Shown here: positions 5,476 through 20,393 of the stretch, in pieces | How positions within the stretch are numbered: the stretch's first letter is position 1 | How the letters are laid out: every line of letters starts with the position of its first letter | DNA from: a candidate division WOR-1 bacterium RIFOXYB2_FULL_46_45 | Lineage (GTDB): Bacteria; Margulisbacteria; WOR-1; XYC2-FULL-46-14 | NCBI GenBank assembly: GCA_001771585.1 | Contig: MEUE01000001.1 | Location: 156,744-191,788 of the forward strand | Reading direction: 5' to 3' | Length of the DNA: 35,045 bases | Notes under the pieces: model-generated | What the model saw: the letters and a program-made list of their open reading frames with translations, nothing else | Told to the model about the DNA's origin: nothing | Databases searched by the model: none | Program-made: the position numbers and the translations under genes

Positions 5476-5667
5476 ATGGCAAAAAAATGTTTTTATTGCG
5501 GCAAACATCCCAGGAGCGGAAACACCGTCAGCCACAGCAACCACAAGACCAAGCGACGTTTTATGCCGAATTTGCAATCGATCAATATACTTGTAGCCGG
5601 AAAAAAGCTGAAAGAGTACGTCTGCACAAAGTGCATTAAGGCCGGGAAAGCTATAAAATCCTCTTAA
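5476..5667 (+). CDS. rpmB: ribosomal protein L28
   Basis: Component of the large ribosomal subunit. The 63-residue protein starts [29 protein letters not shown], the diagnostic L28 N-terminus. Cys pairs CFYCG and VCTKC form the zinc-ribbon (C+) version. The ATG at 5476 is chosen over an upstream in-frame ATG at 5452 because homologues start MAKKC and because AAGGTG lies upstream at a usable distance. The 3' end overlaps the convergent glycosyltransferase gene by 17 bases. Confidence 0.95.
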
Positions 5668-6739
5668 GACGCTGTTCGTAGGTGTGTTCGGCTAAAACCC
5701 TTTTTTGCGCGGCTTCCCCAATTTTCTTACGTTCTGCTTCGTGTTCCAAATAATAAATAATTTTCTTCTTGAAATCTTCGTTATCGGCAAAAACCGCAAT
5801 CTCTTTGCCGGCCTCAAACTGCTCGGAAAGATTGGAGCGGTAATTATCGATCAATTGGAACCCTCCGCAGCCGGCAATACAAAAGGTCCGCTCGGAAACA
5901 CCAATCGGTTGGATATTCTTGGGATTGCCGTGAGTAAAGCGGTCATCGGTCCCCGCCCGGTGCAGATTCAAATTAATCTTTGCTCCGTTATAATATTTGG
6001 CCGCTTCTTCGGGGAAGATAATCTCGTCGGTTATAAATTTATCCAAAACATCCAATCGCTTAAGCTTCTTCTTCCACATCCATGGATCATCGGCACGGCC
6101 GACATTCGGCCCGCCGCCGATAATCTTCACATTGTAATTCTTGAGAAAATCGGCCATCTCGTCAAAAAACTCAACCCTCCTCGGAAAAGGGACCCCGATA
6201 AAACAAATATCGCTTTTATATTTCTCTTCCACTTCCATCGGTTTATAGATATGGGTAAAACACCCCAGCGGTAAAAACTTTCCATTCTTATGTTCCGCGA
6301 CGCAGCTTGGTTCAACCGTGTAAACGTGGTCGTAATAGGCGCCGTTGACGGAGGTAAAATTGATCTCCTGCGGATCGTCAAGATACCAGATCGCCGTTTT
6401 AGTTTTTAGTTTCTTGATCGCCTTCAATATCCGATTGGGAATCCTCCCGACAATATGGAGCATCAGGTCCGGCTCAAAATCTAAAATCTCAAAAGGGATC
6501 GGAGCAGAAGCACGGTCGTCCAAAATTCCCAAAAGGTGCCCTTCGGTCAAATTTTGTTTTTTGGCAACCTCGCGGTAGAAATCGGACATGGTGGTCACCT
6601 GCGCGAAGATGTTGTAGGTTTTTACCTCATGACCCATTGATTTTAAGGTGGAAGCAATATAATGGTCTATGAAAGCGTACGGCCAGGTGGAACCCCAGAA
6701 ATCACCATGGGCAACATAAAGGATCTTCATATCGCCCAT
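5651..6739 (-). CDS. CgeB-type glycosyltransferase (DUF3880 plus glycosyl transferase 1-like domain)
   Basis: A predicted cytoplasmic GT-B fold glycosyltransferase of 362 residues. The N-terminal half starts [20 protein letters not shown] and continues through [11 protein letters not shown] and [10 protein letters not shown], the pattern of the DUF3880/CgeB family. The C-terminal half has [11 protein letters not shown], a nucleotide-sugar-binding stretch [25 protein letters not shown], and a closing helix YEQRL. CgeB relatives modify spore-surface and flagellar-type proteins. This gene closes the large minus-strand operon of unknown proteins, so it may glycosylate one of their products (inference). 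Two ATGs (6739 and 6730) are possible; neither has a strong Shine-Dalgarno sequence. Confidence 0.82.
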
Positions 6740-7103: not shown

Positions 7104-7306
7104 TTTAATCCCTCCCCTTCTATTTTGTAATTTGCAATAAAATTCGTAAAAAAATCGTTCTTTGGATTTTCTTTTGGACCGACCAGTTCATGCGGCAAGG
7201 ATTTTTTAACAATCTGTTGCGCCTGCTTCACTTCATGTAAACTGAAATGGCCATAAGTTCCAGGTGTCAAAGAAATACTTTTAATTGGGATCCCCATGCC
7301 AATCAT
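7100..7306 (-). CDS. 68-residue protein of the regulon, unknown
   Basis: A short unrecognised protein starting MIGMGIPIKSISLTPGTYGHFS, then a helix (LHEVKQAQQIVKKSL) and a polar tail. The beginning is similar in flavour to the next gene's product (MISGIGNTGLS), both with Ile-Gly and Ser/Thr-rich starts. It has 4-base overlaps on both sides (with the 524-residue protein gene and the 120-residue protein gene). AGAGGTGG before the ATG lies inside the end of the upstream gene, so translation is coupled. An alternative ATG occurs at 7297. Confidence 0.65.
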   Translation of the reverse strand: MIGMGIPIKSISLTPGTYGHFSLHEVKQAQQIVKKSLPHELVGPKENPKNDFFTNFIANYKIEGEGLK

Positions 7307-8877
7307 GCTTTTCCACCTCTTGTTATATTCAAATCAACCTTTGCCTCAATCCCGGTTTCGTCAATCAACCGCTTCAGCAGTTTGGCAAGCATCTTCAATT
7401 TCTTTTCCAAAGATGTCCTGGGATTGCCGGCAAAAAGTATCTTGGTCTCCTCAAATTCCTGCCGGGCAATCTCAAACATCTTGCGGTTGGCCGAATCAAC
7501 CATCTCCTTAAATTCCGCGGAAGACAAATCAACTCCCAGCCGCTCCAGGTTCCTTGTTATGCTCTTGATCCGCTGGGAGATCATCTTATAGGCCGGACCG
7601 GCCAGGTCATAAAGAGTCGCCTGCTCGCACAGCGCCTCTTCCAGCATCTCATGAAGCTTTTGGCGCGCCACCTTCTTCCCCTCATTCTGGATCATCTCAA
7701 AATCTCCAAACTTGATCTCCAGCTTTAGTGAATTTTTAATGTTACGGATTTTGAAAGAGGTTTCAAACAGCGTCCTCAAGCCCGGATCAAGGGCCCGGCG
7801 CATGTAGCAGGCGCGCAGTTGGTTGATCAAAAGATCTTTGTCCTCGTCCCCGGTGCAGAAAAATTGCGAATGCTTGCGGTCATCCCGCGCGTTGTCCTGG
7901 TCGGGAGCGTTGTTTAAGCCCAGATCAAACGAAGTAACCTGCCAGTTCTCCAAAAATTCTTTGGCGTTAAAGCCGAATTTTCCGGCCAGCTCCAGCATCT
8001 GCCGCAACTCTTTGTCGGCTCCTTTTTGTTCGAGGTTGTTGGCAACCAGCAAACGTTCAATCTCTTCTTTGGAAAAATCCTTGATTTCACCGGTTACCTC
8101 CGCCATCTTTTCGTCAACCGTCCCCTGTAAGCTGTCGTTATAGCCGCCAAAATCCCACCCCCCCAGCTCCTTGCTGTTAAAGGCATGGTTGATCACTTTG
8201 TTCAGTGTAGCGCTGTTCAAGGCCTTATCGAGCGGCTTATCCGATCCAAACATCCTTTTTAACAGCCCCTCTTTGATCTGCGCGGCAACTTGGGAACGGA
8301 TCGCCGTCTTTACATCCTGCCTTAATCCGAGCAGCTGTCCTTCGGTAACCCCATTCTCTTTAAGCTGTTGTTCCATTTTATCAATTTTTTTCTTCGCTTC
8401 ACTTCCGCCGCTCACCACCATCTGGGAATAGGCGGAAGCATAGTCCTTTACGTTCCCCTTGATCTCTCTTTTTTCTCCGGCTATCCCCTCCTGCTCTTTT
8501 TGATGCCGCTCTCCGGTCTCTTTTTTAAATTTCTGCAGTTTTTTGATGGCGTCGGAATTGACGGAAACATTGTCGCCGTAATTCTCCCGATTTTCACCAA
8601 ACATCAGATCGTATTCGTCTTTGGCTCCCCTCTGTTGTTCATTCCTTTGATTCAATTTCAGCTCCCCGCCCAGCTTTGAAATTAAATCGGCAAGGATCGA
8701 AGCTCCCTTCTTATTCGGTTTTTTATTGTCGAGGAGCCGCTTGGTCAAACTCTGCTCCTCAACGCGATTGTCTTCCGACTGTTTGTCGATATCGCGGACC
8801 GCCGTATTGAGCGATGTAGACATCGCTTGAGCGGCCTGCTGGGCCATCACATTGCTGTCAATGACGTTTATACTCAT
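7303..8877 (-). CDS. 524-residue helical protein of the regulon, unknown
   Basis: The second-largest recognisably helical product of the cluster. The N-terminal 60 residues are polar (MSINVIDSNVMAQQAAQAMSTSLN), without a Sec signal. The middle has charged helices and, near residues 103-116, NVSVNSDAIKKLQKF, which resembles the N-cap and helix of the repeated module in the 1525-residue protein. The C-terminal half (about 330-524) is a helical bundle (MRRALDPGLRTLFE, AYKMISQRIKSI, KLKMLAKLLKRLID). Size, polar start and all-helical C-terminus would be compatible with a gatekeeper or substrate of a type III-like system, but I see no diagnostic motif. AAGGAG precedes the ATG; the gene is coupled to both neighbours by 4-base overlaps. 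Confidence 0.72.
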   Translation of the reverse strand: MSINVIDSNVMAQQAAQAMSTSLNTAVRDIDKQSEDNRVEEQSLTKRLLDNKKPNKKGASILADLISKLGGELKLNQRNEQQRGAKDEYDLMFGENRENYGDNVSVNSDAIKKLQKFKKETGERHQKEQEGIAGEKREIKGNVKDYASAYSQMVVSGGSEAKKKIDKMEQQLKENGVTEGQLLGLRQDVKTAIRSQVAAQIKEGLLKRMFGSDKPLDKALNSATLNKVINHAFNSKELGGWDFGGYNDSLQGTVDEKMAEVTGEIKDFSKEEIERLLVANNLEQKGADKELRQMLELAGKFGFNAKEFLENWQVTSFDLGLNNAPDQDNARDDRKHSQFFCTGDEDKDLLINQLRACYMRRALDPGLRTLFETSFKIRNIKNSLKLEIKFGDFEMIQNEGKKVARQKLHEMLEEALCEQATLYDLAGPAYKMISQRIKSITRNLERLGVDLSSAEFKEMVDSANRKMFEIARQEFEETKILFAGNPRTSLEKKLKMLAKLLKRLIDETGIEAKVDLNITRGGKA

Positions 8878-9821
8878 GAGATTTTCTCCTTAAAGCTCTT
8901 CGCCGTCTCTCTCTCTTCGGCAAACTCGGAAGTTTCGGCCTTCTTAAACATTTCCAGCGCCTCTTTATTCTTTTTACAGGCCAGGGCTATTGCCCCCAGG
9001 ATGTTGTAGGCCGCGACTTCGTTCTGATCAAGTTCCAACGCCCGCAGGGCGGCGCGGTAGGCCTCTTTGGCCCTTTTTAAATTATAAAAACACCAGCCAA
9101 GTTTAACCGCGGCGGCGGCGGCAAATTGTTTTTCGGTATCGAGCGCGATCGCTTTTTCATATTCGGCAACCGCCTCTTCATAGCGCCCGGCCTGGCGCAA
9201 GTTGTTGGCCAGCAGAAAATGGCCGTGCTTGTCGGAAGCGTTCCCCTCCAACATATTTACCAATAAATTGATATTGCGGTTCCATTTTTTCTCCATTGCT
9301 TTTTCCGCCAAATGCCCCCCCCAATGATAGGTTGAAACAGAGGAAACCAGATCGCCGTTGATCGCTTTTCCGTCGGCGTCAAACGGATGTTCGTTGATCG
9401 GACGTTCAAAATGGATCCCCCGCCCATTCCTGAAAATTTTTGGCCTGAAATAAAAATTGCAGGGAATAAAAGAAGGCGGTTCGCATTCACAGATTTTTAT
9501 ATTGTAAGCGTCGGCTTTGGCCTCCGCCAAAAACTTTTTGAGATCTTCAAACTCTTCGGTTTTTATCATCTCATCGGCATCAATCCAGATGATCCATTCA
9601 CCCTTGGCATGCTTCAGCGATTCGTTGCGGGCGGCAGAGAAATCATTGATCCAGGGAAAATTAAAGACCCTGGCGCCGCACTCTTTTGCGATTTCGATGG
9701 TTCTATCGCTTGATCCGGTGTCAACCAGTATGATCTCGTCGACAACCGACGACAAGACCGGAAGAGTTTTGGAGAGCATCTCTTCCTCGTTTTTAACTAT
9801 CATACATGCTGTAAGCAACAT
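8874..9821 (-). CDS. family 2 glycosyltransferase with C-terminal TPRs
   Basis: A 315-residue GT-A glycosyltransferase. It begins MLLTACMIVKNEEEMLSKTL and has DEIILVDTGSSDRT (nucleotide-sugar binding), NFPWINDFSAARN and WIDADE, the DxD-type metal motif. Residues about 195-310 are TPR-like helices (RYEEAVAEYEKAIALD, FYNLKRAKEAYRAALRALELD, YNILGAIALACKKNKEAL). This GT2-plus-TPR architecture is used by protein or peptide glycosyltransferases, among others. It lies in the same operon as the unknown substrates, so a likely role is modifying one of them, by analogy with flagellin glycosylation (inference). AGGAG precedes the ATG; 4-base overlap with the following 524-residue protein gene. Confidence 0.88.
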   Translation of the reverse strand: MLLTACMIVKNEEEMLSKTLPVLSSVVDEIILVDTGSSDRTIEIAKECGARVFNFPWINDFSAARNESLKHAKGEWIIWIDADEMIKTEEFEDLKKFLAEAKADAYNIKICECEPPSFIPCNFYFRPKIFRNGRGIHFERPINEHPFDADGKAINGDLVSSVSTYHWGGHLAEKAMEKKWNRNINLLVNMLEGNASDKHGHFLLANNLRQAGRYEEAVAEYEKAIALDTEKQFAAAAAVKLGWCFYNLKRAKEAYRAALRALELDQNEVAAYNILGAIALACKKNKEALEMFKKAETSEFAEERETAKSFKEKIS

Positions 9822-9830
9822 CTTTTTCTC

Positions 9831-10214
9831 CTAATTGTCCGAGATCAAAACCGAAATTTTCGACTTCTTGGCGCCAACCTGAATCTTCTCCCCCGTTTTG
9901 CCGCCAATTATTTTCTCGATCAGCTTTTCATGCCGTTTGATGGCCCGGTCGGCTTTCTTGATATATATCTCCAGCCGATCAATTTTTGAAAGGACCTCTT
10001 TTTTGTCCGATTCCAAAAAGTGGAGCTCATATTCAAGATTGGATTTTTCCGACAGAAGCTCGCCGGAAATTTTCCGGCACTGCTCAATTTCAATCTCTTC
10101 AAGCTTAAGCGGAGTGTAATAATCGGTCCTCCCCCAGCGTTCCGCCTGGGTGACCAATTGTTTCTTGATCTCCTCCAAAATTATCTTTTGCCCTTTTGCC
10201 GCTTTTCTTGACAT
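9831..10214 (-). CDS. 127-residue coiled-coil protein of the regulon
   Basis: Almost entirely predicted coiled coil: KGQKIILEEIKKQLVTQAE, then IEIEQCRKISGELLSEK, LEYELHFLESDKKEVLSKIDRLEIYIK and a basic closing helix, ending in KISVLISDN. It has no membrane segment. The size and long antiparallel-hairpin character resemble FliJ/SctO-type stalk proteins of flagellar and type III export ATPases, but I cannot see sequence homology, so this is only a shape comparison. It stands 9 bases upstream of the TPR glycosyltransferase gene with AAGGA before its ATG. Confidence 0.68.
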   Translation of the reverse strand: MSRKAAKGQKIILEEIKKQLVTQAERWGRTDYYTPLKLEEIEIEQCRKISGELLSEKSNLEYELHFLESDKKEVLSKIDRLEIYIKKADRAIKRHEKLIEKIIGGKTGEKIQVGAKKSKISVLISDN

Positions 10215-10264: not shown

Positions 10265-10741
10265 TTACCCCATTATCTCAATCATCGCTTTGGCGTACGC
10301 CCAATCCTGCGCGATTTTCTGTTCGATTTCGGAGAGCGCCTCCGCCTTCACTTCGGACTTGATCTCTTCGATCTCCTGCGATGAGATCCCGGCCAGGGAA
10401 AACAAAGAATTCAAGCCGCTCAATTTGACATGCGCCATAAATCTTTCCAGAAGAAGGTTGTGCGATTTTGAACTGCGAAAGTATTCTTTATATTTTTCTT
10501 TGAGCGCCGCGGGATTTATCCCCATACGGGTAATTATTTTTTGTCCGACCGATTCCCCTCTGACCTGGTCCACTCTGCTGGCGACAGTTGAAGAGAGTTG
10601 GGCGACATCTTCCATGCTCTTAAGCGCGGATTCAAAGGTTTTGAGGCCGTCGGTTTTTTTCTGGATCTCATCACTTTTTTGCGAAGTGACGGCGACAGCG
10701 TGCATCTTCTCCCTTGCCATATCAAAATTTAGTTGGCTCAT
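10265..10741 (-). CDS. 158-residue helical protein, first gene of a regulon operon
   Basis: An unrecognised protein starting MSQLNFDMAREKMHAVAVTSQKSDE, polar, without a signal peptide. A central segment (TRMGINPAALKEKYKEYFRSSK) and a C-terminal helical region (EIEEIKSEVKAEALSEIEQKIAQDW) follow. It is the first gene of the operon running to 5651. The sigma-28-like promoter's -10 box ends 8 bases before its ATG and no Shine-Dalgarno sequence is present, so the mRNA should be leaderless. Function unknown; an exported subunit or chaperone is possible from context. Confidence 0.7.
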   Translation of the reverse strand: MSQLNFDMAREKMHAVAVTSQKSDEIQKKTDGLKTFESALKSMEDVAQLSSTVASRVDQVRGESVGQKIITRMGINPAALKEKYKEYFRSSKSHNLLLERFMAHVKLSGLNSLFSLAGISSQEIEEIKSEVKAEALSEIEQKIAQDWAYAKAMIEIMG

Positions 10742-10749
10742 ACATCTAT

Positions 10750-10777
10750 ATATCGTGTTTAAGAGGGGAAAACTTGC
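10750..10777 (-). promoter_or_regulatory. sigma-28-like promoter (for the 10741-to-5651 operon)
   Basis: Minus strand: GCAAGTTTT (10777-10769), 11-base spacer, CACGATAT (10757-10750). Compare the FliA consensus TAAAGTTT-N11-GCCGATAA. The -35 block is identical in all five copies in this cluster. The box ends 8 bases upstream of ATG. Confidence 0.68.
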
Positions 10778-10800
10778 ATTGGGAAAGGGTCCATAAGGGC

Positions 10801-12576
10801 TTATGATTTCTTCTTACTGTTATCCAGCATCTTGGAGAACAATTGCCGCATCAATTGTCTCTTGGCTTCGGCGGTTTTCTCCGCTCTCTGCTTTGCGGAC
10901 ATCTGCTCAGCCTGTTTCTTCTCTTGTTGTTTTCTCCCCTCCGCCCTGGCCGCCGCGCGTCCGATCGCCATCTCTTCTTCGTATTTCTGCTCTTCGTAGG
11001 CCTCTTTATTCTGTTTATAAACTTTGGTCTCCTGCTGGTATCTGGCATTTTCATAAGCGTTCATGGCAAAAGTATTAACGGCATTTTTAGTATCATGATC
11101 TTCGGCTTTTAAAAATCTTCCGGCCAAATTAACAACCCAGTTGGTTCCATAAAGATCATAATTCTGGCCATTGTAAGAGAGGGCAAAGTCTCCTTTAATG
11201 TTGTATTCTTTCAAACCCGCAAGCTGCGCGATAGCATAATTGGGGTGAGAACCGCCATTTTTAACCGCCAGCGGGTTTAGATAGTCAGGCAATCCCTTAT
11301 ATCCCGGCTTAGTTGCATCTTTCTCAAAATTACCGCAAAAGCTGTCCCATCCGGTGTAGCGGTCGTCGTTATACGAGTAATGGTGCCAAGAAGTTACTCC
11401 ATAAGGCAAGTTAAAATCTACTTCTCCTGATTTCGCATTTTGTTCGTTGCTAAGTTTATACTCACTCAATAGCCCCTGAACGCGGTCTTTTTCGGCACCA
11501 CTTAAGGTGCTTATGTATTTATTCACTCCTCCGATCAGCCATTCGCCAAATTTTGCAAAGCCGGCACGGTCACGGGCGCTGTAGATAAAACCGGGACCGC
11601 CCAGGTCACCGTAAATCTCTGTGTTTCCCGAAAAGGCCTGGGTAACGGAGCGGAAAGCGTGCTGCATCGCGAAATACATGTAAAACATTCTAAAATTATG
11701 AGGATCGGCTCCGGCGACATCTTTATCAAAAAAATCACTAATGTCTTTAACCATCGCTAAACTGTCCCCAATATTCTTGTGCTGGCCAAAGACATTGGAA
11801 GCGGCATAATAAATTCTGCGCCGCGATTCCAAAAGGTTCAGCATCACATAAAAAGCCCCCTCCCCGTTTGCCCCTTCCATCCCCTCCCACATAAAGTTGC
11901 AAGAGGAAGTATCGTATCCGTCATTATTCAGATCAAAAACCCCATTACCGTCTTTATCGTTAAACTTGATTTTGTCTATCCCTTTCAAAGCAAATTCGTA
12001 AAAATTGACATTGCCGAATTGCTTCATGAAGGATCGGGCGGAATCGAGTTCAGATTGTTTAATCTCTTTATATTTGGAACTGTCGGACGGGTTATAGGCC
12101 ATCATCGCGGCATAATCCTGATAATCGAGCGCCTGATCGGCTCCGGTTATTTTGTTTTTTACGCCATCGGTAAAAAAATTAGAATCATACGTGGACGGAT
12201 CCCATTCCAAGTTTCCTCCGGTCTCCCCCATTCCATAACCCCAAAACTGATCGCTGGTCCCAACCTGGTGCCAATCGCCGAAACGATCTTCGTATCCCGC
12301 CCCAAGTTTTCCGGCATTGTCCAATCCGCGGTCCTTGGAAGCGACAACTTTCCCAAAGCCTTCATACCAGGTTGTGTCTCCCTCCGACCCATTCTGGTAA
12401 CCGTTCCGCTGGTATTCGGGAAAAAATTTCAGCATCTCCTGAAAATAGTTGATGAATTTTACAACTTCGGAAAAATCTTCGCTGTTTTCTCCGTTACGCT
12501 GAAAAATTTTTGAAGTGTCTTCCGGCAGTTGATACACGGCCGGGCGGGGTTTGGCAGAAAGAAATTCTCCGCTCAT
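10801..12576 (-). CDS. 591-residue protein with a calcium-loop-like motif, unknown
   Basis: A large unrecognised protein rich in aromatic, Gly and Asp residues (for example GDWHQVGTSDQFWGYGMGE, then VTSWHHYSYNDDRY), unlike the helical neighbours, so the middle is probably a compact globular domain. At about residues 207-222 it has DKDGNGVFDLNNDGYD, a tandem D-x-D-x-N-G / D-x-N-x-D-G pattern like EF-hand, dockerin or thrombospondin type 3 loops. The C-terminal 90 residues are a charged, Gln/Glu/Lys/Ala-rich coiled coil ending in KKKS. No signal peptide. GGGAGGAT before its ATG lies within the last codons of the 105-residue protein gene, giving tight coupling. Confidence 0.75.
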   Translation of the reverse strand: MSGEFLSAKPRPAVYQLPEDTSKIFQRNGENSEDFSEVVKFINYFQEMLKFFPEYQRNGYQNGSEGDTTWYEGFGKVVASKDRGLDNAGKLGAGYEDRFGDWHQVGTSDQFWGYGMGETGGNLEWDPSTYDSNFFTDGVKNKITGADQALDYQDYAAMMAYNPSDSSKYKEIKQSELDSARSFMKQFGNVNFYEFALKGIDKIKFNDKDGNGVFDLNNDGYDTSSCNFMWEGMEGANGEGAFYVMLNLLESRRRIYYAASNVFGQHKNIGDSLAMVKDISDFFDKDVAGADPHNFRMFYMYFAMQHAFRSVTQAFSGNTEIYGDLGGPGFIYSARDRAGFAKFGEWLIGGVNKYISTLSGAEKDRVQGLLSEYKLSNEQNAKSGEVDFNLPYGVTSWHHYSYNDDRYTGWDSFCGNFEKDATKPGYKGLPDYLNPLAVKNGGSHPNYAIAQLAGLKEYNIKGDFALSYNGQNYDLYGTNWVVNLAGRFLKAEDHDTKNAVNTFAMNAYENARYQQETKVYKQNKEAYEEQKYEEEMAIGRAAARAEGRKQQEKKQAEQMSAKQRAEKTAEAKRQLMRQLFSKMLDNSKKKS

Positions 12577-12578
12577 TT

Positions 12579-12896
12579 TTATCCTCCCATCTTAGAGGTA
12601 AGCTGTTTTTCCAAACTAAAGAGAGAGGTCTTGAAGCCCATTACCGTTTCAATTGCTTTGGTAGTATCGGTCATAAATTGGCTGTAAAGCAAGGTTCCCA
12701 CGATCCCGTATTTATCCTTAGCTTTAACCTGAATCCCATTGATAGTTATATCGCTTTGCGAATCGGCATAATCAACCAGCATCGAACGCATGGTGCTGTA
12801 AAATGACCGGGTTATATCTTTTATATCCGTTCCCGACGAACCGATTTTATTTTGGACCATCTGCGGCGTTTGATAATTAGTCACGCTCTTGTTCAT
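12579..12896 (-). CDS. 105-residue protein of the regulon, unknown
   Basis: A small unrecognised protein starting MNKSVTNYQTPQMVQNKIGSSG (polar, no signal). A helical segment (DIKDITRSFYSTMRSMLVDYAD) and a short possible beta turn (DITINGIQVKAKDKYG) follow, with a second helix pair ending in QLTSKMGG. The helix-turn-helix layout and size are like small polymerising export subunits such as needle or rod proteins, but this is only a structural analogy. GAGGAGG precedes the ATG. No own promoter is visible; a strong hairpin sits in the 92-base gap upstream. Confidence 0.68.
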   Translation of the reverse strand: MNKSVTNYQTPQMVQNKIGSSGTDIKDITRSFYSTMRSMLVDYADSQSDITINGIQVKAKDKYGIVGTLLYSQFMTDTTKAIETVMGFKTSLFSLEKQLTSKMGG

Positions 12897-12916
12897 TTTA
12901 TTTTCCTCCTCTTCTA

Positions 12917-12954
12917 TTCTTATACTACCGGGATTTCGCCGGGCAGTATAAGAA
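12917..12954. terminator. hairpin between the 137- and 105-residue protein genes
   Basis: Arms TTCTTATACT (12917-12926) and AGTATAAGAA (12945-12954) with inner CCGG/CCGG pairing. On the minus strand it lies after the 137-residue gene's stop and before the downstream Shine-Dalgarno sequence. No U-run follows, so it may be a partial terminator, an mRNA-stability hairpin or a processing site adjusting subunit ratios. Confidence 0.5.
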
Positions 12955-12988
12955 GGGCCGCTACTTAGCTGACCCTCTTATTTGGTTG

Positions 12989-13402
12989 TTATCCTAACTG
13001 ATCGACTTTTCTCTGCAAGACCGTCTTAAGTTTCGAATCCTCTTCGATGGTCTTCGACAATATATTGGTAGCGTTGGTCAATTCCTGGTTGGCCTTGGCC
13101 GTAACCAACATACCCTCCATGGTGTGGGTCCCGACCCATTCACCCTTGTGGGTTTTGGTATACAAACCGGTACCTCCGCCATCTCTTTTGGCCGCCTTCT
13201 CAATCGCGGCTTTGTCGTCCGCACTTAAACTCTTTCCCGAAATGGTCTTATCCGCGCTATTGGCTCCGCCAATAGAAACGTCGGTCTGTCCGTCTTGCTT
13301 GGTTACCTCGACCATGTTATCGGTGATTGAGTTCATGCTTGAATCAAGCCATTGGCCGATTGCCTGCTCGGTGCTTTGAGCGCCACTTGTTTCAACTCCC
13401 AT
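12989..13402 (-). CDS. 137-residue Ser/Thr-rich protein of the regulon, unknown
   Basis: Start set at the ATG 13402-13400, because a near-perfect Shine-Dalgarno GGGAGGTGAT ends a few bases upstream. A GTG at 13411 would overlap that site and is less likely. The product begins MGVETSGAQSTEQAIGQWLDSS, is polar and Asn/Thr/Gly-rich (QTDVSIGGANSADK), has a Gly stretch RDGGGTGLY, and ends in an amphipathic helix (ELTNATNILSKTIEED, then LQRKVDQLG). The form (flexible polar start, C-terminal helix, no Sec signal) resembles small flagellar-type or type III-exported proteins, without recognisable homology. Confidence 0.72.
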   Translation of the reverse strand: MGVETSGAQSTEQAIGQWLDSSMNSITDNMVEVTKQDGQTDVSIGGANSADKTISGKSLSADDKAAIEKAAKRDGGGTGLYTKTHKGEWVGTHTMEGMLVTAKANQELTNATNILSKTIEEDSKLKTVLQRKVDQLG

Positions 13403-13426
13403 CTTAATCACCTCCCTGTATTTATA

Positions 13427-13454
13427 TAATCGTAACTTCTATCCTAAAACTTGC
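13427..13454 (-). promoter_or_regulatory. sigma-28-like promoter (137-residue protein operon)
   Basis: Minus strand: GCAAGTTTT (13454-13446), 11-base spacer, TACGATTA (13434-13427). The box ends 24 bases before the ATG at 13402, leaving room for the GGGAGGTGAT Shine-Dalgarno sequence. Confidence 0.65.
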
Positions 13455-13459
13455 ATGAA

Positions 13460-13489
13460 AGTACGGGCGGATAATTATCCGCCCCTACT
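13460..13489. terminator. perfect palindrome after the 90-residue protein gene
   Basis: GGGCGGATAATTATCCGCCC (13465-13484) is a perfect 20-base palindrome, extended by AGTA/TACT across one mismatch. It begins just after the stop of the 90-residue protein gene and ends a few bases before the next sigma-28-like -35 box, separating the two units. On the minus strand it is followed by only a short T-run. It may be a terminator or a dispersed palindrome reused as one. Confidence 0.55.
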
Positions 13490-13490
13490 G

Positions 13491-13763
13491 TTACTTCTTC
13501 TCTTCTAAAATCTGCTGGATCCGGGCGATGAAGGCATTGATCTTCTCTTCCTCATCGTCCCATTTGACTTCATTAAAATTAAGTCCCTGATTTTTTTGAA
13601 ATGAAATAAACCCCGATTCGGCCTTGCTTGGAGCGGAAATCTTCCCCTGCTTCAGAGCGTGGGCCACCGTATCGACAAAAGTCACTTCTATATAATTATT
13701 GGCCGGCTTTTTCTGTTCGGTCTGCTCTATTTTAAATCCGGCTATTTGGCTTATGCTGTTCAT
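13491..13763 (-). CDS. 90-residue protein of the regulon, unknown
   Basis: A small unrecognised protein starting MNSISQIAGFKIEQTEQKKPANN, then a short beta-like segment (YIEVTFVDTVAHALKQG), a charged middle (NFNEVKWDDEEEKINAF) and a C-terminal helix ending in QQILEEKK. No membrane or signal segment. It is coupled to the upstream gene by a TAATG stop/start overlap and ends at a strong palindrome, so the two form a bicistronic unit. Function unknown. Confidence 0.68.
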   Translation of the reverse strand: MNSISQIAGFKIEQTEQKKPANNYIEVTFVDTVAHALKQGKISAPSKAESGFISFQKNQGLNFNEVKWDDEEEKINAFIARIQQILEEKK

Positions 13764-13978
13764 TAGACCACCGTCCCCCTTCCTTGTCCTTGTATTTGTC
13801 CTTCTGACACTTGCGCGATTTCCTGATTCGGAGCAACGGCTCCTTTCACAGCTCCTCCGGCAGAGAGCGTTTCGATTAAAGTACGCAACACTTTTCCACC
13901 TTCATCGGAAGAGCCCAGCTTCTCCGAAGAAGAAGAAAGCAAACTACTTAATTTGTCTAATGATGAAGTGTTTATCAT
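13763..13978 (-). CDS. 71-residue Ser/Gly-rich protein of the regulon, unknown
   Basis: A short protein starting MINTSSLDKLSSLLSSSSEKLG, extremely Ser/Leu-rich, then a helix (KVLRTLIETLSAGG) and a Gly/Gln-rich tail. The Ser-rich, uncharged amphipathic N-terminus is reminiscent of type III/flagellar export signals (inference). There is no Shine-Dalgarno sequence; the sigma-28-like -10 box ends 15 bases before the ATG, so the leader should be only a few bases long. First gene of a two-gene unit. Confidence 0.62.
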   Translation of the reverse strand: MINTSSLDKLSSLLSSSSEKLGSSDEGGKVLRTLIETLSAGGAVKGAVAPNQEIAQVSEGQIQGQGRGTVV

Positions 13979-13993
13979 AGTTGTTCATATATA

Positions 13994-14021
13994 TTATCGG
14001 AGTTGGGGGCGTAAAACTTGC
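13994..14021 (-). promoter_or_regulatory. sigma-28-like promoter (71-residue protein unit)
   Basis: Minus strand: GCAAGTTTT (14021-14013), 11-base spacer, TCCGATAA (14001-13994), one mismatch from the FliA -10 GCCGATAA. It is nearly identical to the copy before the 1525-residue gene, including the TATATATG that follows. Confidence 0.75.
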
Positions 14022-14029
14022 ATGGGCCT

Positions 14030-14203
14030 TACTCACCCAAGGCAAGCTTCCGTCCTTGTTTTCGCCATTATCCCTCTCTATCCTAGAGAGGGAGAGCTCC
14101 GTTTTTCTCTTGTGTTACAATTGGAAGAGTTGTATTCTGCCCCTCTCTAGAATAGAGAGGGGAAAGGGCAGCTACAAAAACTAAAGCACAGCATGGGTGA
14201 GTA
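14030..14203. repeat. nested inverted-repeat element in the 238-base gap
   Basis: Outer arms TACTCACCC (14030-14038) and GGGTGAGTA (14195-14203) enclose two perfect hairpins with 10-base arms and 3-base loops: 14071-14093 (TCCCTCTCTA/TAGAGAGGGA) and 14140-14162 (CCCCTCTCTA/TAGAGAGGGG). The nested structure suggests a MITE-like or REP-like dispersed element. It sits between the stop of the 1525-residue protein gene and the next promoter and could also end transcription. The rest of the gap holds only the sigma-28-like promoter. Confidence 0.6.
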
Positions 14204-14216
14204 GGGGAAGGGTGAA

Positions 14217-17200
14217 TTACGCTTCAAACGATCTGCGCTGGCTGCCCAGAAGAATGCTCTGCGCGTGCTCGGCCTCTTTCGCCTGCTGTTCCCGTGTCGG
14301 CGCGATCGTCTTTTTCGCGGCCGGCGGCTGGACAGCGGTCGGCCTGTTTTGAACCGTCTGAAGATCGTGTCCGGTTTTATTCCGGTACTCTTTATTGATC
14401 TTGCCGACCAATCTATTGAAGCCCTGGATTTTATTTCTCGCTTCCCCTTCTTTCTTCTGGATTTTTTCGATCTCCAATTGGACGGTTGCTATTTGAGCAT
14501 GTAAATCCTTGGCCTCCGTACTATCGGCTCCCATAGTTTCAATTCGTGCGGAAAGTTCCTTGATTTGATCGAGTTTCTTCCTCCGTTCCGCCACGCTCCC
14601 AAGCAATTCCTCACTTGCCGGCTTAAAGATTTTCGCGTAAAGCTTGTTGTACAAATCCTGCAGATCTTCTGGGTTGAGATCCTTAAGTTCGACTTTTTTT
14701 CCATTAATTTTTTCCGCCTCGGCATCGATTGATTCTTGAATCTTGTCAACCCCTTCCGGAGCAAGGGAAGCTTCGGCCAATTCACCATGGATTGAAGAAG
14801 AAGCCATCGAACGATCCAGGGATTCCAGCTTTGTCAGCAATTCGTTCGCTTTTTGCTCCATAACCCTTGGGTCTTTCACTCTTTTAAGCTCCTCGCTCAA
14901 ATCTTTTATCTCTTTAACTCCTTTGGCGATATCCTCTCCGGTTTTTACTTTTTTATCCGGATTTTCTTCTTTTATGTCCGGATTTTTCTTGTTTTCAAGC
15001 GGATCGGTCTTAACCTTAACTTTGCTCTCCCGCTCTTTCCTGATCTCTTTAATTGTTGGGTCGCTATTCTCAACAAACTGCTGCGCCTTGACGGCGGCGG
15101 CGGAAATCGCGTCCGCCCGGGCCATGAGAGTGGAAACATTGGGAGTTTTTCCCTGTTGCTGTTCCGCTTTAAATTCCGTAAGCGCCTTTTGGAAATCAGC
15201 TTTCGCCTTCGACAAGGTCTGTTTTATCGCTTTTTCCTCTTCTTTTATTTTTTTCTCTGTCTCCTTCAGCTTGCTGATCAAAGTCTGCATCTGTTTTTTG
15301 TTGATCCGATCGTCTATCTCTTTTCCCGCGGATGGCATAGACTCACCCAGCGATTTGATCGAGTCACTCCCCTGTTCGGCCCGCTGGCTGCGATAGTCGG
15401 TATCCTGCATGTTTAGTTCGTTTTGGCCGGCCAACATGTCATCCGCCAGCGACTGCTCTTCCATCATCTGCACTTTTTCGGCAAAGGTTTTGGCCTCTTT
15501 CGACTCTTTGTTCAACGCTTTTTTCTTTTCCGCGACCTTCTTCCCCTTCTCTCCCTTAGAGGCCGATTTTGCCTCCGCATCAACAATTGAAGCGACCGTA
15601 AAATCGATAATCGAACTTAAGACCGAAAGAACTATGCTGGTGGCAAATTCTCCAACCGGCGGCATTTTTATGTTTTCCTCAAGCAGTGACATCTCCGTTT
15701 TCTTTGCTGACGAAATCTCGCCCTTGAGGGATGCCGCCTGTTCCGCCTTTAATGACTCCAGCTTTAAGCTCCTGATATTGCCGATCGCTTTTATAACCTC
15801 TTGGGCGATAGAAATGGACAACTTAACCGCGGAGATAGCGGTGGCCGTAACCGCCTGCTGGGCCTGGTTGTGCCGGCTGACAATCGTCTGCAGGGCCTCC
15901 GTTTGGGTTTGTAAGATTCCCTCAACCATCACCTTGGACTGATAACTTGCCATATCCAGGGCGGCAGTGCTTGAAGCGGAAACAACACTGTTGTAATAAG
16001 CCCGCTCGATGATCGCCTTGCAATTTTGCATTTGACGCATTGCTCCGGAGAGTATTTGTTTGGTCCGATAAAGCCCCTCCCCCTCTTTTGTAACTCTTGA
16101 AAGCTCCCCGCTGTTTAACCCGAGTGTCCCGCTGGTAACATCCTCAAGCAGTGATCCGTCAAGATACAGTTCCGCCTCTTTCTGTTCAAGCGCTTCGCTG
16201 ATGCTTTTGGCCGCCTCTTTTTCTTCCTGCTTCCTGCTCTTTCTTTCCGAATAATTCTGGAGTTTGCCAAAATCATTTTTAGTTTTAATGGCACTCCTGA
16301 CCAATTCATAAATTTGTCCAAAAAACGAATTGACCGTGTTCGCCGCCATCAAGACCCCTTGTATAAAAACCGTTGAGGTAGAACCTCCGGCAATATAAGC
16401 GTAAGCCGAGTATGCGACTGCCGCCGCGTCCACCGAACCTATAACCGTCAGTTTTGTTGAAGCAACCGATGCCCGTTCTTCCGCCGCCGCGATCCGGTTC
16501 TTTACCTGCGCCTTTTCGTTCAAAAGTTGTTTTAAGTAACTGAAAGTCCGGTAAGAATTGGCAAAATGGTCGCTTACCCTCCCCATACTGCTCGGCTCTG
16601 TTACCGCCGAATATCCATAGGCCTGGGCAATGGCATTTTGCAGTTCAACCTTTAATTCATTGTTTGAAACCAACAAGGCAACGGTGTTCATCAGACGCAT
16701 AAATTTGGTTTGTAAAGAAGCCAGTTTATCCGCGTTTAAACCGAATTTACCGTCGCCGATATCGACGATCATATCGTCACCGGTCAACTCCGAATATATC
16801 GCCGCCTCCAATCCGTCGAGCTTCTGCCCGATCCCTTTGGAAGCATTGGTATCTTTACTAATTCCTTTAAAGTCTGAGACTTCCGGATTATATTCGGCCA
16901 TCCCATAAGCGCTATCATAGTGTGAAAGAAGATATTCCGAAAGAGCCGATCCAAAAGTAGAAGCCATTGCAATCCCCTGCCCAACCGCTCCACCAACTCC
17001 ACTGCCGACAAAAGAGCCGACCGAGGTTCCCAAGGAGACATAGAAACGTTCACTTGCCTGCCGCATGGCGATATCCTGCTGATGTTCCATATTAAAACCC
17101 TGTTGGTACTGGTTGAGCTGGAAGGCAAGCATTCCGAACTCCGCCCCACTCTGGCTCAAAATATTTTCGGCCATCGCGTCAAACAAATCGTCCTGCCCGC

Positions 17201-18794
17201 CGGCCCCCGAAAGCCCGGAGGTGGCACGGTGGATCGCCTGCAGCATCTTCCCTTTTTGGCTGATATTTTTTTGTATAAGATAAAGGGCGGCATTTATCCC
17301 GTTTAATTCTTTTTGCATCCGGGTAATCTTGGCATAATCCATCGAAAGCATCCCGTCTTCATTTGTGTCCAAAACATCTTTGGTAAGCTTCCCTTTCGCC
17401 TGTACCCCAAGCGCCTCAATTTTTCCCTCAAGAGAATTCGACGCCGGTCCGGCATTCGTATTTGAATTATCAACCGAAGGGGTATAAGAGTCGTTGACCG
17501 CATCAGCCTGTTCCGCCGCCAGGTAATCGAGCCCCGCTGCCACAATCGCCAATCCGGCTGCCGCAATCGCAAAGACCGGAACCACAAAAGAAATTGCGGA
17601 ACAAATCGCTGAAAGAGCGGTACAAATCCGTGAAAACACCTTGGACAACCAACCCTCATCCAGTTTTTCAAGTTCGAGCTCCCATTTCCTTTTCTGGTTT
17701 TGCAGTTTTTGGACATCGAGGGTGGTCGATTGGAGCTGGTCAAAGGTCATCATCATGTGGCTCGATTCCGACTCCACCACCTCTTTAGACGCCTCATATT
17801 TATTACTCCCCGCTTTTTTCCCGCTCAAGGCCTCTTCCATCGCATCCAAACTATCTTGTCTGGAAGATATGGAAGCGATCGTCATTCTATTGGCGTTAGC
17901 CAGACCCGAAAGCAACCGGCGCATGTCGGAAAACCAGCGAGAGGATGCGTTGATATCAATATAACCGTTGTTGTCTTCGGTATATTTTATATATTGCTCG
18001 GCATCGATAACATTGTTGATTATATTGTCACCGATCTCTGTCATTTTGGAGTTTATCCCCGCCGCCAGCCCCCCCAAATTCTTGATAGCATCGAGGTTCT
18101 TTTGTTTTGCTTTCTTATACTGCTCGTTCAAATCCTTCATCTGCTCCGCCTCTTCTTCCTCCTCATCGCCGCCGGTTATCCAGTTAGTAAAAGTATCCCA
18201 GCTGTCTTCCCTCCAGCTCTTGTGGCTCTGTTCCCTGGCGGTAAAAACCTTATAATTGTGCGCCTCAACCTCTTTTAAAAGGGTCATGACCCCTTTCTGA
18301 AAATTATCCATCGTAACCTTATTCGACTTGAGAACCCCTTCGGAATAAGTGGTTTTGCTCTTTGGTGCCTCATCTTCCGATTCGGAGGTCGCTTCGGCAA
18401 TCCGATCCATCATCTCCTCTTTGGTATCAAGCGACTGGGCGATCAAGAGATTTAGGTTTGCCGCGGCTCTTAGCTTGTTAAAAAGGGCCTCTATTTTCGC
18501 CTGACTGAAAGAAGCAAAACCGTCATCATTATCCATCCCTTCCGTCAATTCACTTTTGTCAAAACCTCTGAAGGCGTCTTCTGTCTGCTTGTCGGCGTAC
18601 GCTCCAAGGTTGTCATAAGATTCGTTCTGGTTCTCGGTAGTATTGGTTAAATATTTTGAAGAAGAATATCCATCGGTTGAATTTACACCGTTGTCGTCTT
18701 CGGTTGACGAAAGATAGCCGCTTTCGGCCGGCTTGGCGCCGGTATTTTTAAAAGCGTCAACAACTGATGTATTGCCATAAATTGGTGCTACCAT
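14217..18794 (-). CDS. 1525-residue modular helical protein with hydrophobic segments
   Basis: The largest gene in the window; I do not recognise it. The first 80 residues are polar and disordered (MVAPIYGNTSVVDAFKNTGA), with no Sec signal. Five modules follow, anchored on Gly at residues 92, 277, 481, 682 and 889. Each has an acidic loop before the Gly (best: DTNEDGMLSMD), a hydrophobic residue at +2 and +4, Ser/Asn/Asp at +5 and a helix after it. Hydrophobic, small-residue-rich segments lie between modules (about 385-428, 588-620, 783-830, and beyond the last module 981-1005 and 1050-1070). The C-terminal 450 residues are long charged coiled coils with a Pro-rich linker near the end. The layout recalls type III translocators or tape-measure-like proteins (inference). 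The predicted mRNA is leaderless. Confidence 0.8.
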   Translation of the reverse strand: MVAPIYGNTSVVDAFKNTGAKPAESGYLSSTEDDNGVNSTDGYSSSKYLTNTTENQNESYDNLGAYADKQTEDAFRGFDKSELTEGMDNDDGFASFSQAKIEALFNKLRAAANLNLLIAQSLDTKEEMMDRIAEATSESEDEAPKSKTTYSEGVLKSNKVTMDNFQKGVMTLLKEVEAHNYKVFTAREQSHKSWREDSWDTFTNWITGGDEEEEEAEQMKDLNEQYKKAKQKNLDAIKNLGGLAAGINSKMTEIGDNIINNVIDAEQYIKYTEDNNGYIDINASSRWFSDMRRLLSGLANANRMTIASISSRQDSLDAMEEALSGKKAGSNKYEASKEVVESESSHMMMTFDQLQSTTLDVQKLQNQKRKWELELEKLDEGWLSKVFSRICTALSAICSAISFVVPVFAIAAAGLAIVAAGLDYLAAEQADAVNDSYTPSVDNSNTNAGPASNSLEGKIEALGVQAKGKLTKDVLDTNEDGMLSMDYAKITRMQKELNGINAALYLIQKNISQKGKMLQAIHRATSGLSGAGGQDDLFDAMAENILSQSGAEFGMLAFQLNQYQQGFNMEHQQDIAMRQASERFYVSLGTSVGSFVGSGVGGAVGQGIAMASTFGSALSEYLLSHYDSAYGMAEYNPEVSDFKGISKDTNASKGIGQKLDGLEAAIYSELTGDDMIVDIGDGKFGLNADKLASLQTKFMRLMNTVALLVSNNELKVELQNAIAQAYGYSAVTEPSSMGRVSDHFANSYRTFSYLKQLLNEKAQVKNRIAAAEERASVASTKLTVIGSVDAAAVAYSAYAYIAGGSTSTVFIQGVLMAANTVNSFFGQIYELVRSAIKTKNDFGKLQNYSERKSRKQEEKEAAKSISEALEQKEAELYLDGSLLEDVTSGTLGLNSGELSRVTKEGEGLYRTKQILSGAMRQMQNCKAIIERAYYNSVVSASSTAALDMASYQSKVMVEGILQTQTEALQTIVSRHNQAQQAVTATAISAVKLSISIAQEVIKAIGNIRSLKLESLKAEQAASLKGEISSAKKTEMSLLEENIKMPPVGEFATSIVLSVLSSIIDFTVASIVDAEAKSASKGEKGKKVAEKKKALNKESKEAKTFAEKVQMMEEQSLADDMLAGQNELNMQDTDYRSQRAEQGSDSIKSLGESMPSAGKEIDDRINKKQMQTLISKLKETEKKIKEEEKAIKQTLSKAKADFQKALTEFKAEQQQGKTPNVSTLMARADAISAAAVKAQQFVENSDPTIKEIRKERESKVKVKTDPLENKKNPDIKEENPDKKVKTGEDIAKGVKEIKDLSEELKRVKDPRVMEQKANELLTKLESLDRSMASSSIHGELAEASLAPEGVDKIQESIDAEAEKINGKKVELKDLNPEDLQDLYNKLYAKIFKPASEELLGSVAERRKKLDQIKELSARIETMGADSTEAKDLHAQIATVQLEIEKIQKKEGEARNKIQGFNRLVGKINKEYRNKTGHDLQTVQNRPTAVQPPAAKKTIAPTREQQAKEAEHAQSILLGSQRRSFEA

Positions 18795-18803
18795 ACATAT
18801 ATA

Positions 18804-18831
18804 TTATCGGAGTTAAAGGGGAAAAACTTGC
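18804..18831 (-). promoter_or_regulatory. sigma-28-like promoter (1525-residue protein gene)
   Basis: Minus strand: GCAAGTTTT (18831-18823), 11-base spacer, TCCGATAA (18811-18804). Only nine bases separate the box from ATG (18794-18792) and none of them forms a Shine-Dalgarno sequence, so the transcript should begin at or within a few bases of the start codon. Confidence 0.75.
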
Positions 18832-18843
18832 GTCCAACTCACC

Positions 18844-19839
18844 TTATGGTGAATTCTGAGCAATCGGCAGGGCTTCTCCGGGAGCGTGCTTCTTCGGGGC
18901 TTTTTCTTCTTGCAGGACTTTTAGATGGATCAGGTAAAGCTTTTCAACTTCTTCCTTATTTAAGACCTTCGGCATGGCAAAAATATTGTTATCTTTTTGT
19001 TTACTCAATAATCTGGTTATTACAACAGCATATTTTTCCAAAAAATTACCCTTATCAAGAACCTTATCTAAATCAATATCATATTTTAAACCGTCATCAT
19101 TGTGCTGAACATAATAACTGTTAATTTCGGCATGTGCCGCGCAAGCCAGAAGCGCCGCCAATTCTCTCTTTATCTTGTTAAAATTAGGAGGATTTCCGAG
19201 TTTCTCCGCCAATTCGCGGTCAACATCCGCCGAAGTTTTCCTGTCGTTTACCCGGCTGGCCACATAACCTTTATAAGCCGCGGCTATCAATCCCCTGTCA
19301 ATCTTATTATAATCCAATTCTTCAATCCCCTTGCCCATCTTTTCAAAATCGGTATATGAGAACTCCCCTTTGATAAGAGACCAAACCGATCCGTTGTCGG
19401 AAGCGGCAAGAGTCGTAATATACGGATAATAGTTTCTTAATCTTGTAACAAGTCCTGCAAGAGTAATACCGTCTTTTTTGTCCAATTCGCCGTCTTGATC
19501 ACCAAAGAGAAAATCAATAAACTTATCACCCATATCACCGGAATATCCCATAGAGCCGAGCAATAGAGAGGATAATACTCTTTTTAAAATATTTCTGAAG
19601 ATCCAATCACTTTTGTTTGGACGAAGGACACCGTCCTTATCCATAATTTTTTCAAGGACATCCTTTAATCCTAATCCCAATCCGCTGACCACCAGAGGAA
19701 TAACTTTCCCCCCCCCAAACATTTTTGAAAGGAGTTCGGCAATTTCGGCATAGACCGGGTTTTTTGCTTTCTCTTGAGAAGCTATTGCAACCCTAGCCGG
19801 TTTAGCTGCTGTAGCTGATCCAATTGCATCTGGTGCCAT
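18844..19839 (-). CDS. 331-residue helical protein with two acidic loops, unknown
   Basis: An unrecognised protein. The N-terminus is Ala-rich and polar (MAPDAIGSATAAKPARVAIA), followed by a hydrophobic stretch (KVIPLVVSGLGLGLKDVLEKI, about 45-65). MDKDGVLRPNKSDW (about 66-79) and FGDQDGELDKKDG (about 112-124) are D-x-D-G loops similar to those in the 1525- and 591-residue proteins. The remainder is helical (IKRELAALLACAAHAEIN, KYAVVITRLLSK) with a Pro/Lys tail. GGGAGAT precedes the ATG. Last gene of the three-gene unit starting at 20317, two bases from its neighbour. Confidence 0.72.
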   Translation of the reverse strand: MAPDAIGSATAAKPARVAIASQEKAKNPVYAEIAELLSKMFGGGKVIPLVVSGLGLGLKDVLEKIMDKDGVLRPNKSDWIFRNILKRVLSSLLLGSMGYSGDMGDKFIDFLFGDQDGELDKKDGITLAGLVTRLRNYYPYITTLAASDNGSVWSLIKGEFSYTDFEKMGKGIEELDYNKIDRGLIAAAYKGYVASRVNDRKTSADVDRELAEKLGNPPNFNKIKRELAALLACAAHAEINSYYVQHNDDGLKYDIDLDKVLDKGNFLEKYAVVITRLLSKQKDNNIFAMPKVLNKEEVEKLYLIHLKVLQEEKAPKKHAPGEALPIAQNSP

Positions 19840-19841
19840 GT

Positions 19842-20057
19842 TTATCTCCCTATCTCCTTCTTAATCTCGGCTTCAAGCTCTCTCTTTTTGATCTCCAGCT
19901 TTCCTTTGGCATCCAAAATTTTCGCTTCCACTTTCTTTAATTCTTCCTGCGCCTGCTTCTTCTGCCGCAGGGCCTGGATGAAGCCGTTCAAGCTGAACAA
20001 AAAGTATCCGATAATCACACCAAAAAGAATCGACGTCAGCTCAAATTGAAATGGCAT
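19842..20057 (-). CDS. 71-residue single-span membrane protein with coiled coil
   Basis: MPFQFELTSILFGVIIGYFLFSLNGFIQAL gives one membrane span, followed by a strongly charged heptad helix (RQKKQAQEELKKVEAKILDAKGKLEIKKRELEAEIKKEIG). The topology is a short anchor with a cytoplasmic coiled coil, judging by the positive residues after the span. It could tether or gate the cluster's other components at the inner membrane. The start codon overlaps the previous gene's stop as TAATG. Confidence 0.72.
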   Translation of the reverse strand: MPFQFELTSILFGVIIGYFLFSLNGFIQALRQKKQAQEELKKVEAKILDAKGKLEIKKRELEAEIKKEIGR

Positions 20058-20317
20058 TATACTATTTTCTCCTTTTTCTCCTTTTCTTCCGCGAGCGGTG
20101 CCCTTGGCCCGCTCTCACCTTTACCCTTGTTAATATTTTTCTCTGGAGGAAGAACTGGATTAAGATCATCCTTAAAGCTAAATAGCCCAGCCAGCCCGCC
20201 TCTCACCTCTTTGGATCCGCCTATCTCTTGCGCTTTTGTATTTAACACGCCACCCAAATTACTAAGCGCGGCAGGACGCTTATATGAAGACATTCGTGGT
20301 ATCCCATCTATTGACAT
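20057..20317 (-). CDS. 86-residue low-complexity protein, first gene of a regulon unit
   Basis: An unrecognised short protein starting MSIDGIPRMSSYKRPAALSN, with Gly/Leu in the middle (GGLAGLFSFKDDLNPVLP) and a Lys/Glu tail (EEKEKKEKIV). It has no signal peptide and is probably flexible. AAGGAGAAAT precedes the ATG, and a sigma-28-like promoter lies 48 bases upstream. Cotranscribed with the membrane coiled-coil and 331-residue protein genes. Confidence 0.66.
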   Translation of the reverse strand: MSIDGIPRMSSYKRPAALSNLGGVLNTKAQEIGGSKEVRGGLAGLFSFKDDLNPVLPPEKNINKGKGESGPRAPLAEEKEKKEKIV

Positions 20318-20365
20318 ATTATTTCTCCTTTTAGTCTCTCTATAATTATACTTCTACCAACTACC

Positions 20366-20393
20366 CTATCGTAATAACCCCCATAAAACTTGC
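20366..20393 (-). promoter_or_regulatory. sigma-28-like promoter (20317-to-18844 unit)
   Basis: Minus strand: GCAAGTTTT (20393-20385), 11-base spacer, TACGATAG (20373-20366). The box ends 48 bases before ATG, leaving room for the AAGGAG ribosome binding site. It lies back to back with the penicillin-binding protein promoter. Confidence 0.64.

Follow-up and report, generated by a model that had tools for sequence, protein, structure and literature searches.

Sigma-28-like promoters and a putative export programme around a filament-less flagellar apparatus in candidate division WOR-1

A stretch of 35,045 nucleotides from the candidate division WOR-1 bacterium RIFOXYB2_FULL_46_45 (GenBank assembly GCA_001771585.1, contig MEUE01000001.1, positions 156,744 to 191,788), referred to here as the window, carries a cluster of genes on its minus strand, several of whose products match no protein family. 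Five sites in this cluster have the features of promoters for a sigma-28-type sigma factor. Here we investigate these sites, the sigma factor that may read them, and the reduced flagellar apparatus to which they appear to be connected. The comparison covers the source genome (G000, 1.70 Mb), 30 relatives of the same class, within which Candidatus Saganbacteria falls, and 26 relatives from other classes of the phylum. Only one of the genomes compared, G001, belongs to the same family.

Each of the five sites is an exact minus-strand match to GCAAGTTTT-N11-NNCGAT, and in every case the -10 element is an octamer with CGAT at positions 3–6. The octamer is CACGATAT in the promoter at 10750..10777, TACGATTA at 13427..13454, TCCGATAA at both 13994..14021 and 18804..18831, and TACGATAG at 20366..20393. 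The motif ends 8–48 bases before a start codon (10741, 13402, 13978, 18794, and 20317, respectively), and these starts agree with open reading frames (ORFs) in the sequence. There are five copies of GCAAGTTTT in the window, where 0.67 would be expected, and none of 100 shuffled sequences reached this number. A GGAGG-type ribosome site is present downstream of the promoter at 13427..13454. The -10 element is 8 bases from the start codon at 10750..10777 and 9 bases from it at 18804..18831; because of this short distance, the latter promoter is likely to give a near-leaderless mRNA.

Behind the promoter at 20366..20393, the first gene codes for a protein of 86 amino acids (aa) with no family match (20057..20317; a 77-aa ORF is at the same position in G001). 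It is followed by an ORF of about 71 aa (19842..20057; conserved in G001 with 42% identity) and by a 331-aa protein, also with no family match (18844..19839; 32% identity to its G001 homologue). The promoter at 18804..18831 precedes the gene for a 1525-aa protein (14217..18794) for which neither a family match nor a Sec signal was found; it has a hydrophobic pair at residues 386–423, a further hydrophobic segment at 1050–1068, and a G001 homologue with 40–42% identity. Behind the promoter at 13994..14021 are a 71-aa serine-rich ORF (13763..13978) and a 90-aa protein (13491..13763; G001 homologue 38%). The promoter at 13427..13454 precedes the genes for the two most conserved proteins of the cluster, of which the 137-aa protein (12989..13402) is the better conserved, at 68–70% with G001, and is found in 3 of the 31 class genomes. 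The other, of 105 aa (12579..12896), has a G001 homologue with 56–58% identity and a similar 104-aa ORF in the same place in G003. The 591-aa protein that follows (10801..12576) matches no family, has a G001 homologue (48%), and corresponds to a similar 592-aa ORF in the same place in G003. Behind the promoter at 10750..10777, the 158-aa protein (10265..10741) gave no reliable match in family searches, and the 127-aa coiled-coil-like protein (9831..10214) corresponds by homology to the C-terminal portion of a G001 protein of 329 aa that sits behind the orthologous promoter. The G001 counterpart of the cluster (locus L222) has the same gene order and all five promoters. In G003 there are ORFs in the order of the cluster, the first of which matches the 137-aa model, with the next ones being alike by size and place.

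Translocator-like and needle- or filament-like roles are possible among these proteins. Searches of Pfam, NCBIfam, PHROGs, and solved structures returned nothing reliable that would identify any of them as a needle, translocator, or effector. The 105-aa protein is predicted at low confidence to fold as a helix, a short hairpin, and a long helix, and the single-sequence AlphaFold model (pLDDT 55, pTM 0.31) was too poor for a fold search. A phage origin was rejected, as there was no PHROG match.

Is the motif peculiar to this cluster? The first-pass annotation of the window, which gave the five minus-strand sites and the gene starts exactly, had seen no copy outside the cluster and proposed a scan of the full genome. 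Within the window there is indeed no other copy. Genome-wide, however, G000 contains 19 matches to the strict pattern GCAAGTTTT-N13-CGAT, 18 of which are upstream of an ORF; the reversed pattern and a spacer lengthened by 1 base, used as controls, have none. Since one copy falls within the reading frame of dnaG and another precedes an XRE-type regulator gene, a few of the matches are likely due to chance, and these two may be among them. In the 30 class relatives the pattern AAGTTTT-N13-CGATA occurs 3–19 times per genome (mean 10.9; reversed control 0.37), compared with a mean of 2.2 in the 26 relatives outside the class (control 0.54). Among 95 sites from the class relatives, 80 directly precede an ORF without lying in a long one, 14 fall within a long ORF, and GC or AC precedes the motif at 84.

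All five window sites are kept at orthologous genes in G001. The core of the sites is 92% identical between the two genomes, whereas the spacer is 58% identical and the 40 bases upstream 29%, which is near chance. Conservation of the core while the spacer and flank diverge is a hallmark of sites under selection, in line with the earlier proposal of selected promoters rather than a copied repeat. The G000 proteins encoded behind the motif share no mutual homology at phmmer E<=1e-3, for which reason duplication of a gene family and copying of a repeat were both rejected. The identification of the motif as a promoter is strongly supported by the sequence. Sigma-28 promoters have the form TAAAGTTT-N11-GCCGATAA in Escherichia coli and TAAA-N15-GCCGATAT for Bacillus subtilis SigD (PMC5200910). 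The likeness to the FliA consensus noted in the first-pass annotation is found in the shared AAGTTT but does not extend to the spacing, which, counted from AAGTTT, is one base longer between the -35 and -10 elements than in E. coli. In addition, the -35 element here begins G/A-C-A-A and not TAAA.

In several relatives the motif heads operons encoding parts of a flagellum. It precedes the FliK1-FlgG-FlgH-FlgI-sigma-FliF operon in G001, G002, G005, G012, and G019. In G009 and G010 it precedes the operon that contains FliK2, and at the head of this operon G000 has a CGAG variant. The first operon contains, in order, FliK-like, FlgG, FlgA, FlgH, FlgI, FlgJ-like, sigma factor, FlgB, FlgC, FliE, FliF, short FliG, FliH, FliI, and FliJ genes, with additional FlgF-like and FlhB-C-like ORFs in G001, G002, and G005. 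The small ORF resembling the FlhB C-terminal domain is between the FliK-like and FlgF-like genes (L223:7565-7918, L224:7461-7835, and L225:6886-7197), its likeness being by sequence only. The second operon is comprised of FliK-like, hook-like, FliM, FliN, FliO, FliP, FliQ, FliR, FlhB, and FlhA genes. Models matched FlgB, FlgC, FlgG, FlgH, FlgI, FliF, and FlhA, the last at 809 bits; FliE, FliI, FliP, FliQ, FliR, and FlhB were assigned by position and sequence alone. The apparatus retains the rod, the P and L rings, the MS ring, a short hook-like protein, and a complete export gate.

Does this apparatus still propel the cell? It could be argued that the sites are sigma-28 promoters serving a working flagellum, the filament and stator of which are too divergent for the models, and that the proteins without a known family are filament, cap, or motility parts. 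In favour of this, rod, ring, and hook-like genes occur alongside FliM and FliN, the cluster adjoins glycosyltransferase genes as is seen near many flagellins, and the small, conserved 105-aa protein, helical as predicted, may be a subunit. However, neither the flagellin model Flagellin_N (PF00669) nor the stator model MotB_plug (PF13677) has a match in G000 or any of its 30 class relatives, several of the latter being 98–100% complete, yet both are positive in control genomes and in other families of the phylum. FliG ends in its middle domain in both genomes examined, with 172 aa in G000 (L025:6549-7067; N and part of the M domain) and 171 aa in G001 (L089:13391-13906), and is without the C-terminal torque domain. 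Furthermore, most of the proteins encoded behind the motif are large, diverse, and not common to the whole class. We consider a working flagellum unlikely.

A search for a FliA/SigD/WhiG-family sigma gene, also suggested by the first-pass annotation, found a FliA/WhiG-like gene inside the basal-body operon. This, the strongest gene of the type, codes for a 247-aa protein (G000:C3:15.6-16.3 kb; L025:9603-10346) that carries Pfam Sigma70_r2 and Sigma70_r4 and is short, without a long region 1. Among the NCBIfam sigma models TIGR02479 scores best, at 143 bits, followed by FliA and WhiG, ahead of SigB/F/G, RpoD, and RpoS, and the best solved relatives are 278-aa sigma factors (6pfj, 6pfv) and E. 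coli FliA (6pmi). An orthologue is present in 29 of the 30 class relatives with 62–79% identity; no full-length match from outside the class exceeds about 37%. That the motif is read by this FliA/WhiG-like sigma factor is supported by the family of the protein, the shared distribution of factor and motif, and the location of the gene. Alternatively, the motif may serve another factor, either a different sigma or a DNA-binding regulator, with the likeness to FliA sites being coincidental. The score of the sigma factor, under the family cut-off, and the spacing, which exceeds that of the E. coli consensus by one base, would both allow for this. Against it, the motif has two boxes at a fixed spacing just upstream of starts, with a CGAT -10 core typical of sigma-28, the class-specific sigma goes with a class-wide motif, and the motif heads the operon that encodes the sigma factor itself. 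On balance another reader of the motif seems quite improbable.

What, then, would a FliA/WhiG-like sigma factor regulate in these bacteria? Most of the downstream genes are without any family match. A minority of the products have envelope features, among them an L,D-transpeptidase (YkuD), an SLH-domain protein, and a cadherin-like/beta-helix lipoprotein. A set of 99 regulon proteins was drawn from several genomes of the class, and 84 of them do not have a Sec-like N-terminus. In residues 2–31 of these 84, S/T/N/Q/P/G make up a fraction of 0.44, as against 0.30 in control genes (p ~2e-15), and there are fewer hydrophobic and charged residues than in the controls. This composition resembles that of type III substrates. 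The regulon proteins also differ greatly among genomes, as cargo or parts of a surface structure would be expected to do.

We think it probable that a sigma-28-type factor drives a filament-less export system derived from the flagellum together with its presumed substrates, the window cluster included. The five sites would be promoters for the FliA/WhiG-like sigma encoded in the basal-body operon. In this class the flagellum would have been reduced to a hook-basal-body that has neither filament nor stator but whose type III export gate is intact. The sigma factor would drive the apparatus operons and hence, from the promoter positions, itself in several genomes, as well as the window cluster and scattered, mostly Sec-less proteins without a known family. 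The Sec-less regulon proteins are probably late substrates that would leave via the export gate. Export of surface or released proteins is the purpose that we favour. An export programme rather than motility is thus indicated, which largely supports the earlier interpretation of an export or motility-related programme. Its export side is supported, while motility is contradicted because flagellin and MotB were not found in G000 or the 30 class relatives. On this reading, most of the 17 convincing sites would be expected to show transcription starts about 6–8 bases past NNCGATAN.

Some observations weigh against this reading. Certain regulon members bear Sec signals or envelope domains, and so not all regulon proteins can be substrates of the machine. 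The sigma factor is under the curated cut-off for TIGR02479 (FliA_WhiG), with 143 as against 189.6 bits, and for this reason is termed FliA/WhiG-like here and not a member of the family. In G000 no motif was found upstream of the sigma operon; autoregulation is indicated in several relatives, because the motif heads the operon there, but is not shown in G000. Lastly, the N-terminal composition is only a hint, because start codons were set by rule and the control genes came from one genome. It is very unlikely that the apparatus is a decaying remnant whose regulon is kept for envelope functions only, with products that the machine does not export, for although the Sec signals or envelope domains of some regulon genes and the truncated FliG would fit this, the sigma factor is retained at 62–79% identity in all but one of the 30 relatives, the basal-body operon is intact in the genomes read, and the apparatus operons are retained under the same promoter.

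A more far-reaching version of the preferred reading, that of a sigma-driven export system, can be offered only tentatively, and we are inclined to doubt it. Across this whole class, which is uncultured and apparently non-motile, the flagellum may have become a machine dedicated to secretion or injection, with the flagellar sigma as master regulator of both the machine and a large, fast-changing cargo, and with the window cluster as a new external part such as a needle, a filament, or a membrane-inserted tip. Quite apart from this version, the class as a whole combines a partial flagellum with a conserved sigma factor that belongs to it and with a promoter that can be read. Since this promoter picks out candidate cargo one gene at a time, the purpose of half a flagellum becomes a directly testable question. 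The motif also offers a route to function prediction for many proteins of a little-known phylum related to Cyanobacteria.

Several known systems share some of these features. Non-flagellated Legionella oakridgensis has reportedly kept sigma-28 without flagella, as is the case here (FliA/FlgM study cited in PMC12199754). In Campylobacter jejuni, some sigma-28-dependent non-flagellar genes are linked to export via the flagellar type III gate. There, as here, sigma-28-type promoters are found on non-flagellar genes, but in C. jejuni the flagellum is complete and such genes are few, unlike the many genes and absent flagellin of the present system. The sigma-28-dependent non-flagellar genes and the Feds of C. 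jejuni are the subject of references in PMC9856085. With FliA/SigD/WhiG regulons in general, the system shares a two-box promoter with AAGTTT and CGATA, a sigma factor among flagellar genes, and late, secreted-type products. It differs in that there is no flagellin target and that the apparatus operons and the operon of the sigma factor itself appear to be in the same tier.

Partial flagella without filaments are already known, their role being an open question (PMC12199754, PMC8109811), and 11% of non-motile species have rotor genes but no filament (PMC12199754). In Buchnera aphidicola the basal body and export gate are kept, flagellin, MotA, and MotB are lost, and the structure is thought to be repurposed for secretion (PMC8109811). 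The genes described here likewise encode a basal body and export gate without flagellin or MotB. However, Buchnera is an obligate endosymbiont, and FliA is not mentioned in that paper, whereas here a whole class with larger genomes has a dedicated sigma-28-type regulon made up of candidate substrates. A homologous export gate and effector-like cargo without a known family are shared with the non-flagellar type III secretion systems, or injectisomes (PMC3459982). Unlike these, the rod FlgB/C/G, the rings FlgH/I, FliE, and FliF are of flagellar type; the fliF model scores 208 bits as against 82 for YscJ, and flagellar rod and ring genes are present. Literature on Saganbacteria, Margulisbacteria, or WOR-1 with flagella or secretion yielded no description of such a system, and a paper on these lineages (PMC6349859) makes no mention of flagella, motility, or secretion. 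The literature searched, which excludes most subscription journals, contained no case of a class-wide filament-less apparatus combined with a dedicated sigma regulon of proteins without a known family.

Two glycosyltransferase genes adjoin the window cluster. One, of family 2 with TPR repeats (8874..9821, minus strand), has a counterpart in the same place in G001 with 59% identity, and the other is of the Glyco_trans_1_2 type (5651-6739), near the position of which G001 has another glycosyltransferase-like ORF. The minus-strand gene at 7303..8877 codes for a 524-aa protein of the same kind as the family 2 glycosyltransferase with TPR and corresponds to a 532-aa ORF with a similar N-terminus in the same place in G001. 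It is possible that the glycosyltransferases beside the cluster modify exported proteins.

Elsewhere in G000, a second big island of proteins without a known family, up to about 2700 aa long, has two copies of the motif (L030:2-19086; G000:C1:565-584 kb). It is apparently another regulon island and is unrelated in sequence to the window cluster. At L001/L026 (G000:C1:128177 and 128777), two adjacent small genes code for proteins of 140 and 131 aa that both begin MTRV; their promoter regions are almost identical, and the pair resembles a recent duplication. In about 17 of the 99 regulon genes the start codon is 4–14 bases past the -10 octamer (window genes at 18794 and 10741; L016, L011, L117, and L214), so close that their mRNAs would be nearly leaderless and would lack a ribosome site. 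Other regulon genes have a clear GGAGG-type site.

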